Made by a program: the position numbers and the translations under genes. From [Clostridium] celerecrescens 18A (GTDB lineage Bacteria > Bacillota > Clostridia > Lachnospirales > Lachnospiraceae): a DNA stretch of 64,000 bases. Location of the stretch: positions 2,976,001 to 3,040,000 of the forward strand of contig NZ_PGET01000001.1 of NCBI RefSeq assembly GCF_002797975.1. The letters run 5' to 3'. Below the pieces are notes generated by a model. It was given only the letters and a program-made list of their open reading frames with translations, had not been told where the DNA came from and made no database searches. Below are positions 8,398-11,898 of the stretch, in pieces; position 1 is the first letter of the stretch; every line of letters begins with the position of its first letter.

Positions 8398-8442
8398 TTA
8401 TATTGTTCTCAATTTGAATTTATAAGGATTACAAAGAAATGG

Positions 8443-8471
8443 TTGACAAATTGATACCAGGGACATATACT
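8443..8471 (+). promoter_or_regulatory. Sigma-A promoter of the mgtA leader
   Basis: TTGACA (8443-8448), 17-bp spacer, TATACT (8466-8471). The predicted transcription start is near 8478, just upstream of the M-box riboswitch. Confidence 0.85.
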
Positions 8472-8487
8472 AGAACAGGTTAATGAA

Positions 8488-8655
8488 TAATTAGACCGTT
8501 TCGGTAGGTGAGGCTACCGCAGGGATACGGGTTGCTGCCGCAAAATAGTGGAAACACTATGAGAAGGTGAACAGTCCATGTCGAAAACAAGGCATGGAAT
8601 AATGCAATTACATTGCCCTGCGAAGCTAAAGCTTGAACGATGGCGGGAAACGCTT
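8488..8655 (+). ncRNA. M-box (ykoK leader) magnesium riboswitch
   Basis: The aptamer core is recognisable from conserved blocks: GGTAGGTGAGGCTACC (8502-8517), GGGATACGGGTTGCTGCCGC just after it, and GCTAAAGC near the 3' end (8624-8631). These match the M-box consensus of Bacillus mgtE/ykoK leaders (AGGTGAGGCT, GAGATACGCTGCTGCC, GCTAAAGC). Magnesium binding should favour the downstream terminator hairpins and stop transcription before mgtA. The aptamer edges are approximate. Confidence 0.88.
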
Positions 8656-8680
8656 TACATAATACAGTCAAGCGTTTTTA
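8648..8680 (+). terminator. First terminator-like hairpin of the mgtA leader
   Basis: Stem aaacgctt / aagcgttt with a 14-nt loop followed by a short T-run, at the 3' edge of the M-box. It is a candidate expression-platform terminator, weaker than the next hairpin. Confidence 0.55.
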
Positions 8681-8690
8681 TAGGGATGTT

Positions 8691-8730
8691 ATCCCCTGTC
8701 GTCGTTTTACTATGACGGCAGGGGATTTTT
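8691..8730 (+). terminator. Second terminator hairpin of the mgtA leader
   Basis: 13-bp stem atcccctgtcgtc / gacggcaggggat with one wobble pair, 10-nt loop, then a T-run. This is the best candidate for magnesium-induced termination by the M-box. Confidence 0.8.
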
Positions 8731-8748
8731 ATATTTGGAGGTGAGGAC

Positions 8749-8868
8749 ATGGACGACGGAAGTAGTAAGCGTATAAACGATGGACAGAATGATACCGCTT
8801 GTGACATAAGTGCGCTTTTTTTGTTTGCTCATGCCCAAAACCGGTGCTTTAGGCAAAGGCTTTTATAG
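8749..8868 (+). CDS. Leader ORF 1 of the mgtA transcript, 39 aa
   Basis: Small ORF with a strong ribosome site (GGAGGTGAG, 8737-8745) and ATG at 8749, located between the M-box terminator and a further terminator. The peptide starts MDDGSSKRINDGQND, rich in Asp and Asn, and ends in a hydrophobic, then basic stretch (ALFLFAHAQNRCFRQRLL). I know no homologue. Codons 9-13 (8775-8786) are perfectly complementary to the 5' arm of the terminator at 8901-8938, so ribosome position on this ORF could decide termination. It could also be a noncoding spacer with a chance frame, but the ribosome site argues for translation. Confidence 0.6.
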   Translation: MDDGSSKRINDGQNDTACDISALFLFAHAQNRCFRQRLL

Positions 8869-8909
8869 GCCATAACTCCTATTGCCGCTTTGCGTGTTGT
8901 CCATCGTTT
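8775..8909 (+). promoter_or_regulatory. Antiterminator pairing inside leader ORF 1
   Basis: Bases 8775-8786 (aaacgatggaca) are an exact 12-nt complement of 8898-8909 (tgtccatcgttt), extendable by a G-U pair at each end. The second segment is the 5' arm of the terminator that follows. The two structures exclude each other, as in classical attenuators. The first segment also lies in the loop of a local hairpin (agcg-tat / ata-c-cgct, 8769-8799). Confidence 0.6.
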
Positions 8910-8938
8910 GGTTTTAAAAAACAGACGATGGTTTTTTT
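8901..8938 (+). terminator. Third terminator of the mgtA leader, between the two leader ORFs
   Basis: 10-bp stem ccatcgtttg / cagacgatgg (one G-U pair) with an A/T-rich loop and seven consecutive Ts. It lies 32 bp after the stop of leader ORF 1 and must be read through for mgtA expression. Confidence 0.85.
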
Positions 8939-9013
8939 ATGCCCTTTTTTAATAAAAAAACTCTCCCCATTGGGGTTTATATAAATACTACTAAAACAAG
9001 CGAGGTGAACGAA

Positions 9014-9106
9014 ATGGAAACCGGAAGTAAATACGGCCCTGATCCTGACGGGCGAAACCGAAGGCTTGAGCCGGAATGGAACCCTTTTTCCATTTCGGCG
9101 GCCTGA
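9014..9106 (+). CDS. Leader ORF 2 of mgtA, Pro/Asp/Glu-rich 30-aa peptide
   Basis: ATG at 9014 with GAGGTGA upstream (9003-9008) opens a 30-codon frame that stops 74 bp before mgtA. The peptide contains [18 protein letters not shown], an alternation of Pro with acidic residues followed by Arg. This resembles Salmonella MgtL (MEPDPTPLPRRR...), in which such residues destabilise translating ribosomes when magnesium is low and thereby switch on mgtA. The last third of the ORF forms a 10-bp hairpin (about 9070-9098) that a translating ribosome would open. The functional analogy is inference; the sequence and ribosome site are observed. Confidence 0.6.
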
Positions 9107-9180
9107 ATATAGACGAGGCTCATCAGTATATGGGCTGTGCTTCCTCACATCTTACAAAAATAAAATGGAGGTACAGACCA

Positions 9181-11898
9181 ATGCAAAAAGTAAAAAACAA
9201 TTTAGAAACCTTAAAAGTAACCCAGGACATGGTGCGCCGTGACGAGATCGCGACCAGGATAAAATCTGCCGCCGCTGCTAAAACGGATGCACTGTTTAAC
9301 AATCTGAACACGACGCCGGAAGGACTCAGTGAGGATCTTGTGGGGGCTTCCCGTGAACAGTACGGCGACAATAAAGTTACCCACGGAAAAAAAGTATCCC
9401 TGCCAAAACGCATCACCGAGGCATTCATCAATCCTTTTACCGCCATCCTAATCGGGCTGACGGCGGTGTCGGCGTTTACCGACATCATTCTCGCAGAACC
9501 GGGAGAAGCAGATCCGCTGACTGTTGTGATTATCATGACAATGGTGATGATTTCCGGAATTCTGCGCTTCGTGCAGGAAACAAGAAGCGGCAACGCCGCT
9601 GATAAGCTTTTAAAAATGATCAAGACGACCACAAACGTCCGGCGGATGGAAACTGGCAACGCGGAAATACCGCTGGAAGAAGTCGTTGTGGGCGATATTG
9701 TCCATCTGGCTGCGGGAGACATGATTCCCGCCGACATGCGGATTATCCAAGCCAAAGATTTGTTTGTCAGCCAGTCGGCACTGACTGGGGAAAGTGTGGC
9801 AGTAGAGAAAATTCCAGGGGCCGTGAGTGTGGAACACGATACATTGGCAGAGTACCCGAACCTGGCCTTTATGGGATCAAACGTCATCAGCGGCAGCGCG
9901 GCAGGCGTGGTTGTTGCGACGGGTGACGACACGATATTCGGAGATATGGCAAAGAACGTCAGTGATAAACCTGTGCAGACCAACTTTGAAAAAGGCGTTA
10001 ACTCTGTATCATGGCTGCTCATCCGGTTCATGATGGTCATGGTTCCCATCGTGCTGTTTATCAACGGATTCACCAAGGGCGATTGGATGGAGGCAACCCT
10101 GTTTGCCCTGTCAGTGGCGGTAGGCCTGACACCGGAAATGCTGCCGATGATCGTCACCACCTGCCTAGCCAAAGGCGCAGTGGCTATGTCTAAGGAAAAG
10201 ACAATCATCAAGAACTTAAATTCAATCCAGAATCTTGGTTCCATCGATATACTGTGTACTGACAAGACAGGAACCCTGACCCAGGATAAAGTGGCACTGC
10301 AATACCACTTGAATATCCACGGGGAGGAAGATACACGCGTATTGCGCCATGCCTTTTTAAACAGCTATTACCAGACAGGACTGAAAAATCTTATGGATGT
10401 CGCCGTCATTGAACGCACCCTGGAAGAGCAGAAAACGGTAGCGGAGCTTCGCGGCCTTACCGATCAGTTTACCAAGGTTGATGAAATCCCCTTTGACTTT
10501 GAGCGTCGCCGTATGAGCGTAGTGGTAAAAAATGGCAAGACACAGATGATCACCAAGGGAGCGGTGGAGGAAATGCTGTCGGTTTGCAGCTTTGCTGAGT
10601 ATGAAGGACAAGTGCTGCCGCTGACTGACGACATCAAGGCATATATTCTTAAAAAGGTAAATGATTTAAACGAGGATGGAATGCGGGTTATCGCCGTTGC
10701 GCAAAAGACCAATCCCTCTCCCGTAGGCACGTTTTCCGTGGCTGACGAATCGGATATGGTGCTGATGGGATATCTTGCTTTCCTTGATCCGCCAAAGGAA
10801 TCTACGGCTGAAGCACTTGCCGCCTTAAAAGAGCATGGCGTGGATGTGAAAATTCTGACTGGCGATAACGACAAGGTGACTCGCTGCGTTTGCCGGCAGG
10901 TAGGCCTCTCCGTTGACCGTATCTTATTGGGCTCTGATCTTGACAACATGTCCGATGAAGAACTTGGAAGCGCCGCCGAAAGAGTAAGCGTTTTTGCCAA
11001 GCTGTCTCCGCAGCAGAAGGCCCGTGTCATTACAATCTTACGGAATAACGGGCATAGCGTTGGCTATATGGGAGACGGTATCAACGACGCGGCAGCAATG
11101 AAGGCTTCCGACGTGGGCATTTCCGTTGACACAGCGGTAGACATCGCCAAAGAGTCCGCTGATGTCATTCTTCTGGAAAAAGACTTAATGGTATTGGAGA
11201 AGGGCATCATCGAGGGCCGCAAGACTTACGCCAACATGATCAAATATATCAAGATGACGGCAAGCTCCAACTTCGGCAATATGTTTTCAGTACTGGCAGC
11301 CAGTGCTTTCCTGCCCTTCATTCCCATGCTGCCCATCCATCTGATTCTGTTGAATCTGATTTACGATTTAAGCTGTACGGCAATTCCGTGGGATAATGTA
11401 GATAAAGAGTACCTTGCTGTACCGAGGAAATGGGACGCTTCTTCCATCGGAAAATTTATGATATGGATCGGACCGACCAGCTCGGTGTTTGACATCACCA
11501 CCTACCTGCTGATGTATTTCATCATCTGCCCTGCCATGACCGGCGGACTTATGTTCCACCAGCTTACTGACCCGGCTATGCAGGCATACTTTATCGCACT
11601 GTTCCAGGCAGGCTGGTTTGTAGAATCCATGTGGAGCCAGACTCTTGTCATTCATATGATTAGAACGCCTAAGATTCCTTTTATCCAGAGCCATGCTTCC
11701 CTGTCGGTGACACTGCTCACCTTCACAGGCATTGCAGCCCTGACCATCATTCCCTTTACCAAACTTGGAGCATCCATCGGCCTTGCCGCCCTGCCGCCTG
11801 TATATTTTGCATGGCTGGCGCTGACCATTTTCCTGTATATGGTGCTCGCTACGGTATTCAAGAAGATTTTTATCAGAAGGTATGGTGAGTTATTATAA
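9181..11898 (+). CDS. mgtA: Magnesium-translocating P-type ATPase
   Basis: P3B-type ATPase importing Mg2+ across the cytoplasmic membrane. It has 905 residues, close to the ~900 of MgtA/MgtB. Domains in order: N-terminal cytosolic tail, first membrane pair, actuator domain with [12 protein letters not shown], transport helices with [11 protein letters not shown], the phosphorylation site [10 protein letters not shown], the nucleotide domain with [11 protein letters not shown], the hinge [11 protein letters not shown] and [13 protein letters not shown], then six C-terminal membrane segments. The start at 9181 follows GGAGG with good spacing; the frame also extends 35 codons upstream into leader ORF 2. 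Expression should be controlled by the M-box and leader ORFs. A perfect hairpin follows the gene. Confidence 0.95.

Follow-up and report, generated by a model that had tools for sequence, protein, structure and literature searches.

A conserved leader open reading frame and a candidate RNA switch upstream of mgtA in [Clostridium] celerecrescens 18A

Organisation of the mgtA leader

The window (the whole stretch of 64,000 nucleotides analysed here) belongs to a single-contig genome of 5.27 Mb, and all of the features described below lie on its forward strand. The closest named locus is that of Lacrimispora celerecrescens (Lachnospiraceae; locus L016), whose MgtA is 96% identical and which carries both of the leader open reading frames, ORF-A and ORF-B. 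From left to right, the region consists of a promoter-like match, an M-box, a terminator (T1), ORF-A, a second terminator (T2), ORF-B and mgtA. The promoter-like sequence 5′ of the M-box (TTGACA-17-TATACT, 8443–8471) agreed with the consensus at 11 of 12 positions in a consensus scan, but the region contained three such matches versus 2.4 in its shuffled versions, and the sequence is thus described as a consensus match only. The M-box (ykoK) Mg2+ riboswitch aptamer at 8493–8656 matched RF00380 with 106.4 bits, above the gathering score of 44, and is followed by its intrinsic terminator T1 (8691–8730), which has a 15-bp stem and a T-run. Apart from the M-box, nothing in a scan of 8400–9300 against Rfam 15 rose above the gathering score, and eight other matches (E up to 10) were far below the scores of their own families. 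Matches to three records in a plasmid collection were confined to roughly the first 160 bases searched, which correspond to the M-box part. The transporter gene, mgtA (9181–11898), encodes a magnesium-translocating P-type ATPase (TIGR01524, 1155 bits, cut-off 611).

ORF-B (9014–9106) had been reported in an earlier note on this DNA as a 30-codon ORF with a ribosome site, located 74 bp before mgtA. Its coordinates, its translation and the ribosome site GAGGTGA (9002–9008) were all confirmed, with 74 nt between the end of ORF-B and the mgtA ATG at 9181. The other leader ORF, ORF-A (8749–8868), has 39 codons, starts with MDDGSSKRINDGQ... and is preceded by the ribosome site GGAGGTGA. Both ORFs share the start pattern GAGGTGA..ATGGA..GGAAGTA, and a search of the 5.27-Mb genome with the pattern GAGGTGAN{2,8}ATGGANNN{0,6}GGNAGTA returned two matches, ORF-B and ORF-A, whereas the backwards control returned none. 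Between the two ORFs lies the intrinsic terminator T2 (8901–8938), with arms at 8901–8907 and 8925–8931 and a T-run at 8932–8938. Its hairpin (−13.4 kcal/mol) has an 11-nt loop and was outside the consensus scan, in which the loop limit was 8. ORF-A, T2 and the strand at 9123–9144 discussed below were absent from the earlier note.

Conservation of the leader reading frame and its genomic setting

A peptide search of 25 genomes of the genus returned three close copies of ORF-B and weaker matches, and a search of 299 genomes of the family gave six weak matches outside its own genome (E 0.03–0.08). No Pfam or NCBIfam family matched the ORF-A or ORF-B peptide at E up to 1. Since the peptide is not conserved past its N-terminus, the comparison was moved to mgtA loci and to the DNA pattern. 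Eighty mgtA loci were fetched, of which 41 had an ORF-B-like leader that was analysed; these were chosen by eye from lists of 8–90-codon ORFs and, together with the window, gave 42 regions. Four more loci (L065, L067, L070 and L071) carry the type of leader found in L064. These four are among the other 39 loci, which had no such ORF listed, repeated the L064 type, had only the ORF-A type, or held too little upstream DNA (L024 and L039). A further 22 leaders came from other genomes by a pattern search that required no open frame, and 21 of these were added to the 42 regions, making 63 leaders in all; L121 was omitted, as its frame runs into mgtE. The names of many metagenome bins (archaeon, Proteobacteria and others) were not trusted, and no taxonomic range is therefore claimed from those loci.

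Over codons 2–14 of the 63 leaders, the pN/pS-like ratio, calculated by pairwise codon comparison among related leaders and thus from non-independent counts, was 0.47 in frame (bootstrap 0.42–0.58), and the two shifted frames gave 0.97 and 1.01, which argues that the frame is under selection. The ratio over codons 15–22 was 1.00, i.e., no selection, indicating that the first 14 residues are selected while the next eight are not. The open frame of the first 42 leaders was partly a product of how they were selected, and only the 22 pattern-found leaders were used for the open-frame statistic. All 22 were open for at least 25 codons, the shortest observed length and a threshold set after the fact, versus 7.8 expected after shuffling of the downstream DNA and a maximum of 17 in 20,000 simulations. 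The start codon was ATG in 59 of the 63 leaders, GTG in three and TTG in one. Codon 2 specified Asp or Glu in 61 of 63 (GAA 23, GAC 21, GAT 9, GAG 8), a count that depends on the search, in which the start was itself in part a criterion: ATGGA and GGNAGTA are fixed in the pattern, and one ORF selection required TGG[AG]. With its open frame and frame-specific purifying selection, ORF-B has the characteristics of a translated upstream ORF, and these comparisons indicate that it is very probably translated. The earlier note had proposed an alignment of mgtA leaders as a check on the frame, the start and a Pro/Asp/Glu (P/D/E) pattern in the peptide. Frame and start were conserved across the 63 leaders, with synonymous-biased change, but the P/D/E residues were not, as just 10 of the 63 leaders, and none of the 16 that precede mgtE, contain P[DE]P[DE].

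The start pattern was run over 788 genome draws, 397 from the family and 391 from the class, with some genomes in both. It gave 36 distinct matches, compared to three for the backwards control. Twenty-four of the 36 precede mgtA (seven, two of which are in this genome) or mgtE (17), with the leader start 136–470 nt before the first aligned residue of the transporter. The remaining 12 look like chance matches: they are starts of long genes or ORFs of less than 20 codons, with no forward mgtA or mgtE match within a locus of up to ≈3 kb. The mgtE query protein matched TIGR00400 with 398 bits; one mgtE match, in L106, was weak (27% identity). These 24 matches tie leaders of this type to Mg2+ transporters. 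MgtA and MgtE are unrelated proteins, and the presence of the leader before both therefore means that it follows function. In L121, the leader start MDSDGSKGNN... lies in one 475-codon open frame with mgtE, and a fusion of leader and transporter is possible at this locus.

The M-box that the earlier note had placed upstream of ORF-B was found in the window as the RF00380 match, and the fetched upstream DNA contained one in 28 of the 40 mgtA loci scanned (≈1 kb away in L095) and in five of five further mgtA loci. Among the mgtE loci with a leader, an M-box was found in one of 15 and in none of the other 14, indicating that the leader does not depend on the M-box. Two mgtA loci carry a NiCo riboswitch (RF02683) upstream of the ORF-B/mgtA module, at 1133–1233 of L037 (66.7 bits) and 108–207 of L066 (77.4 bits), and neither has an M-box at or above the gathering score.

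Competing helices around the mgtA ribosome site

Five RNA strands, denoted a–e, can be delineated in and after ORF-B. Strand a (9002–9025), which contains the Shine-Dalgarno (SD) sequence and start region of ORF-B, pairs with strand c (9085–9106), its complement at the 3′ end of ORF-B, with −25.8 kcal/mol in the window. Strand b (9022–9048) corresponds to ORF-B codons 4–12, encodes GSKYGPDPD and constitutes a putative anti-anti-SD that pairs with strand d (9123–9144) with −24.8 kcal/mol in the window. Strand d is the anti-SD, with its core GGGCTGTGCTTCC at 9132–9144, and also forms a duplex of −18.3 kcal/mol with strand e (9167–9179, GGAGGTACAGACC), the SD sequence of mgtA. The d:e and b:d helices thus compete, and one of them hides the ribosome site of the transporter, as in an mgtQ-type attenuator.

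Strands that are truly paired should fit their own partner better than the partner from another species, which is the logic of the swap test used here. The ribosome-site strand was assigned in 37 of the 42 regions (none for L063, L069, L076, L090 and L093). From these 37 loci, seven were excluded in the first b:d test, six in the first a:c test and six in the main swap test, for want of a clear strand d, as near-duplicates or because of an odd long insert. The 31 loci of the main test were merged into 29 representatives with less than 85% identity. Own partners scored better than swapped partners for a:c (19.4 versus 13.8), b:d (21.5 versus 17.4) and d:e (18.4 versus 13.5), each with p = 1e-4 by permutation, whereas the control pairing b:e was not significant (p = 0.06); these p-values are rough, because the permutation ignores relatedness. 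The a:c helix also passed in the 16 mgtE leaders (18.5 versus 13.2 swapped, p = 1e-4). When the lower six b:d pairs were taken alone they reached only p = 0.04, and support for b:d therefore rests on the upper seven pairs.

Pairs of the types CG, AT, TA and GC are found at several positions of a:c and b:d. At a:c position −4, for example, CG occurs in 11 representatives, AT in five, TA in four and GC in two, with other combinations in seven of the 29. The ungapped 13-bp core of a:c had a z above 2.5 relative to shuffles in only 34 of the 63 leaders. Taken together, the sequence comparisons support the conservation of three helices, a:c, b:d and d:e, which would form an RNA switch around the mgtA ribosome site. 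We treated a:c and b:d as probably competing, because the spacer from c to d looks too short in L057 (≈11 nt, by eye); a full pseudoknot of a:c with b:d was set aside on account of the same spacer. Within 9070–9098 of the window, strand c also pairs with a local mimic of strand a (GCCGGAATGGAA, 9070–9081), and this hairpin is present in both the minimum-energy and centroid folds, which means that the b:d form can be fully nested there.

Some variations on this arrangement were seen. By eye, the copy of the start sequence is also present in L016, L021, L022, L023 and L041. L043 has both leaders, and in this locus a:c is absent (z 0.2) while b:d is kept (−19.4 kcal/mol). A candidate short-range hairpin in b (AGCCC...GGGC) resembles regions 1:2 of mgtQ.

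Ribosome position, alternative readings and related systems

The RNA was folded with a masked ribosome at successive positions in 28 of the 37 loci. Without a ribosome, the RNA is predicted to be mostly closed, with a d:e pairing of 0.65. The d:e pairing rose to 0.86 with the mask at codon 12 and fell to 0.47 with the mask five codons before the stop. The b:d pairing was 0.00 with the mask at codons 9–13 and 0.00–0.09 at codons 7–19; it was maximal (0.76) with the mask at codon 1, yet d:e was still 0.66 at that position. The d:e pairing is thus highest when strand b is blocked, and a ribosome sitting over b is therefore predicted to close mgtA most firmly. On average, the mgtA site was least open with masks at codons 9 and 16 (mean fraction unpaired, 0.10) and most open when the mask lay six codons before the stop (0.31); without a ribosome the value was 0.21. 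Because these differences are modest, and because the site in the window itself was only 0.00–0.12 open at the reported mask positions, the folding does not decide the sign of the response.

We consider it rather likely that ORF-B is a translated regulatory leader ORF in a switch for mgtA translation, and that loss of the ribosome at low Mg2+ turns the switch on. Sequence comparison supports the translated frame, the selection on codons 2–14, the three helices and the tie to Mg2+ transporters; ribosome position as the input, Mg2+ acting on the ribosome and the sign of the response are what we infer. In the OFF state, a:c and d:e would form, and neither the start of ORF-B nor the ribosome site of mgtA would be accessible. 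In the ON state, b:d would form, so that the codons of ORF-B take up the anti-SD strand and the mgtA ribosome site is free. The ribosome on ORF-B would select the fold: when it is at about codons 7–19, strand b would be blocked and d:e would form. At low Mg2+, the ribosome would most likely be lost early, on the acidic, Gly/Ser-rich N-terminus, whereupon b would be freed to capture d and mgtA would be translated. The logic of mgtL and mgtQ would in this way be attained through an unrelated sequence. Ribosome loss at low Mg2+ has been reported for MgtL (PMC11282234), and opening of mgtA by such a loss is proposed by analogy with that system and with what has been argued for mgtQ (PMC8092293).

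The same switch could also operate with the opposite sign: full translation of ORF-B would cover c and leave a:c open, so that b takes d and mgtA is ON, while early loss of the ribosome would turn it OFF. The placement of the stop codon of ORF-B speaks for this reading. In 28 of 34 loci the stop lies 6–32 nt past the c core, and in 26 of 32 it lies 6–33 nt ahead of the 13-nt anti-SD core (in two it lies beyond d, and in four at 59–139 nt), so that a ribosome terminating there would in many cases lie over c without reaching d. Masks over the final third of ORF-B (codon 25, codon 28 and six codons before the stop) also left the mgtA site most open (0.26–0.31), at least as open as without a ribosome, and mutation of the mgtQ start codon lowers mgtB translation in Salmonella (PMC8092293). 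With this sign, however, the pump would depend on good translation, the reverse of the MgtL response, and the selection on the peptide stops at codon 14, which suggests that the critical event occurs early. We regard the opposite sign as unlikely, though far from negligible. It is somewhat less likely still that the leader responds to a different signal (for example ribosome stress, the supply of amino acids or another metal) and simply happens to be frequent before Mg2+ transporters. The NiCo riboswitches in place of an M-box above the gathering score in L037 and L066 would fit such a signal, but all 24 leader matches precede transporters of two Mg2+ families.

The earlier note had proposed that the P/D/E motif itself acts as a Mg2+-sensing nascent peptide, like the EPDP of MgtL. 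ORF-B does have PDPD followed by Gly-Arg, the 10 loci with the motif use six spellings, set apart by synonymous or Asp/Glu changes, and codons 7–14 are under purifying selection (0.49). Two-acidic-residue motifs are the known ribosome-destabilising signal. Nevertheless, the frequency of the motif given above rules out PDPD as a universal sensor, and with it an EPDP-type acidic/proline motif conserved across the leader family, which would have placed it with MgtL. Acidic pairs in the first 15 residues were near the shuffled level (32 of 63 leaders versus 27 ± 3 after shuffling of the residues), which also weighs against our preferred reading. Moreover, the PDPD segment is encoded inside strand b and changes in step with d; loci with a different d also have a different b and peptide (SGTKPKG, SGAKLKG, NGENPGG). 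We therefore find it improbable that the motif is the sensor. Residue 2 is acidic in 61 of the 63 leaders, a count qualified by the use of the start in the search, even though the middle base of codon 2 is unpaired with c in eight of the 34 loci whose a:c helix is clear. With PDPD being rare, this points to M-[DE]-x-[GDE]-[SG]-S rather than P/D/E as the general signal, and only the acidic residue 2 and a Gly/Ser-rich N-terminus appear to be general among the leader sequences. Conversely, the RNA alone might be the Mg2+-sensing switch and the ORF incidental, given that three helices pass the partner-swap tests and that a:c and b:d could form a pseudoknot. Such a switch would not explain the frame-specific selection on codons 2–14, the conserved open frame, or why the non-ATG starts (four of 63) are GTG or TTG only. 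High Mg2+ is also expected to favour the more compact RNA fold, which is the wrong direction for an importer, and we regard an RNA-only switch as very improbable.

On our preferred reading, in which the ribosome on the leader ORF is the input, ORF-A probably acts like ORF-B one step earlier, on T2, as a transcriptional version of the same device. The ORF-A strand AAACGATGGACA (8775–8786) is a candidate antiterminator: it is a perfect 12-nt complement (−16.9 kcal/mol) of TGTCCATCGTTT at 8898–8909, which contains the 5′ arm of T2, CCATCGT. Translation of ORF-A would block the AAACGATGGACA strand, and T2 would form. ORF-A-like ORFs are found in L016, L018, L021, L030, L043, L087 and others, and the module was compared in 16 loci including the window. 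L016 has the same antiterminator/terminator arrangement after ORF-A, and comparable terminators occur in L030, L032 and L043. An a:c helix at ORF-A is strong in L027, L055 and L087 (z −4.6, −3.2 and −4.6, respectively) but not in the window (z +1.0), and for this reason only the antiterminator is claimed for ORF-A.

MgtL and mgtQ are enterobacterial leader ORFs that act on Mg2+ transporter genes. In translational attenuators of the ermC type, translation of a leader ORF switches helices that hide a downstream ribosome site; these are induced by drug-stalled ribosomes, and their genes and architecture differ from those of ORF-B. Salmonella mgtQ, which precedes mgtB, is likewise a short ORF with an acidic residue 2; its RNA can form alternative stem-loops, the ribosome site of a Mg2+ transporter gene is hidden in one of them, and control is at the level of translation (PMC8092293). 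However, mgtQ has eight codons and lies between mgtC and mgtB within an operon (PMC8092293), whereas the ORFs described here have 24–65 codons, lie in a leader, differ in sequence and use the five-strand a/b/c/d/e design. They are found in Clostridia and Lactococcus, before both mgtA and mgtE, and usually with an M-box upstream when the gene is mgtA. MgtL, upstream of mgtA in E. coli and Salmonella, shares early acidic residues, the transporter family and alternative folds, but works at the level of transcription, by way of a Rho-dependent terminator, and its EPDP starts at residue 2 (PMC11282234 and PMC6460261). ORF-B, by contrast, faces an SD site; an anti-SD helix and intrinsic terminators are seen, and the family has no conserved EPDP. 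In Mycobacterium tuberculosis, an M-box is followed by a conserved small ORF that precedes pe20, upstream of a Mg2+-related operon; the M-box governs this ORF by means of a translational platform and Rho, and the abstract of PMC12810186 describes no anti-anti-SD inside it.

Control of Mg2+ transporters by leader ORFs has thus been described before, but neither this family nor its five-strand design nor its use before mgtE seems to have been. A full-text literature search turned up no such leader that we recognised in Bacillota, which is weak evidence, as most subscription papers are outside the reach of that search. No matching motif was found in the available parts of two surveys of bacterial RNA motifs (PMC8632094 and PMC11109978), and the mgtE motif in the latter is confined to Thioalkalivibrio, as far as that part goes. 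More tentatively, the leaders with M-[DE]-x-[GDE]-[SG]-S may constitute a family of Mg2+ sensors that work through the ribosome, are found in Clostridia and some Lactococcus, and depend on neither the M-box nor MgtL. In such a family the ribosome would serve as the Mg2+ gauge, anti-SD and terminator outputs would be interchangeable, and two unrelated transporter families would be controlled. If so, one transcript in this genome would pass three gates in series, M-box/T1, ORF-A/T2 and ORF-B/ribosome site, which raises the question of why a transcript already controlled by an M-box should have one or two further gates. If a covarying system unrelated in sequence does precede mgtA as well as mgtE in Clostridia, leader-ORF control of Mg2+ transport would have arisen more than once, and dozens of natural variants would be at hand for separating RNA pairing from peptide sequence.

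A further short leader ORF (MDSGPLP... or VDPVPLP...) was seen by eye ≈110 nt before mgtE in L110, L115, L116 and L117. Its DPVPLP resembles the EPDPTPLP of MgtL, and its ribosome-site region, GGTAGT(T), looks complementary to the downstream sequence CATAACTAC.
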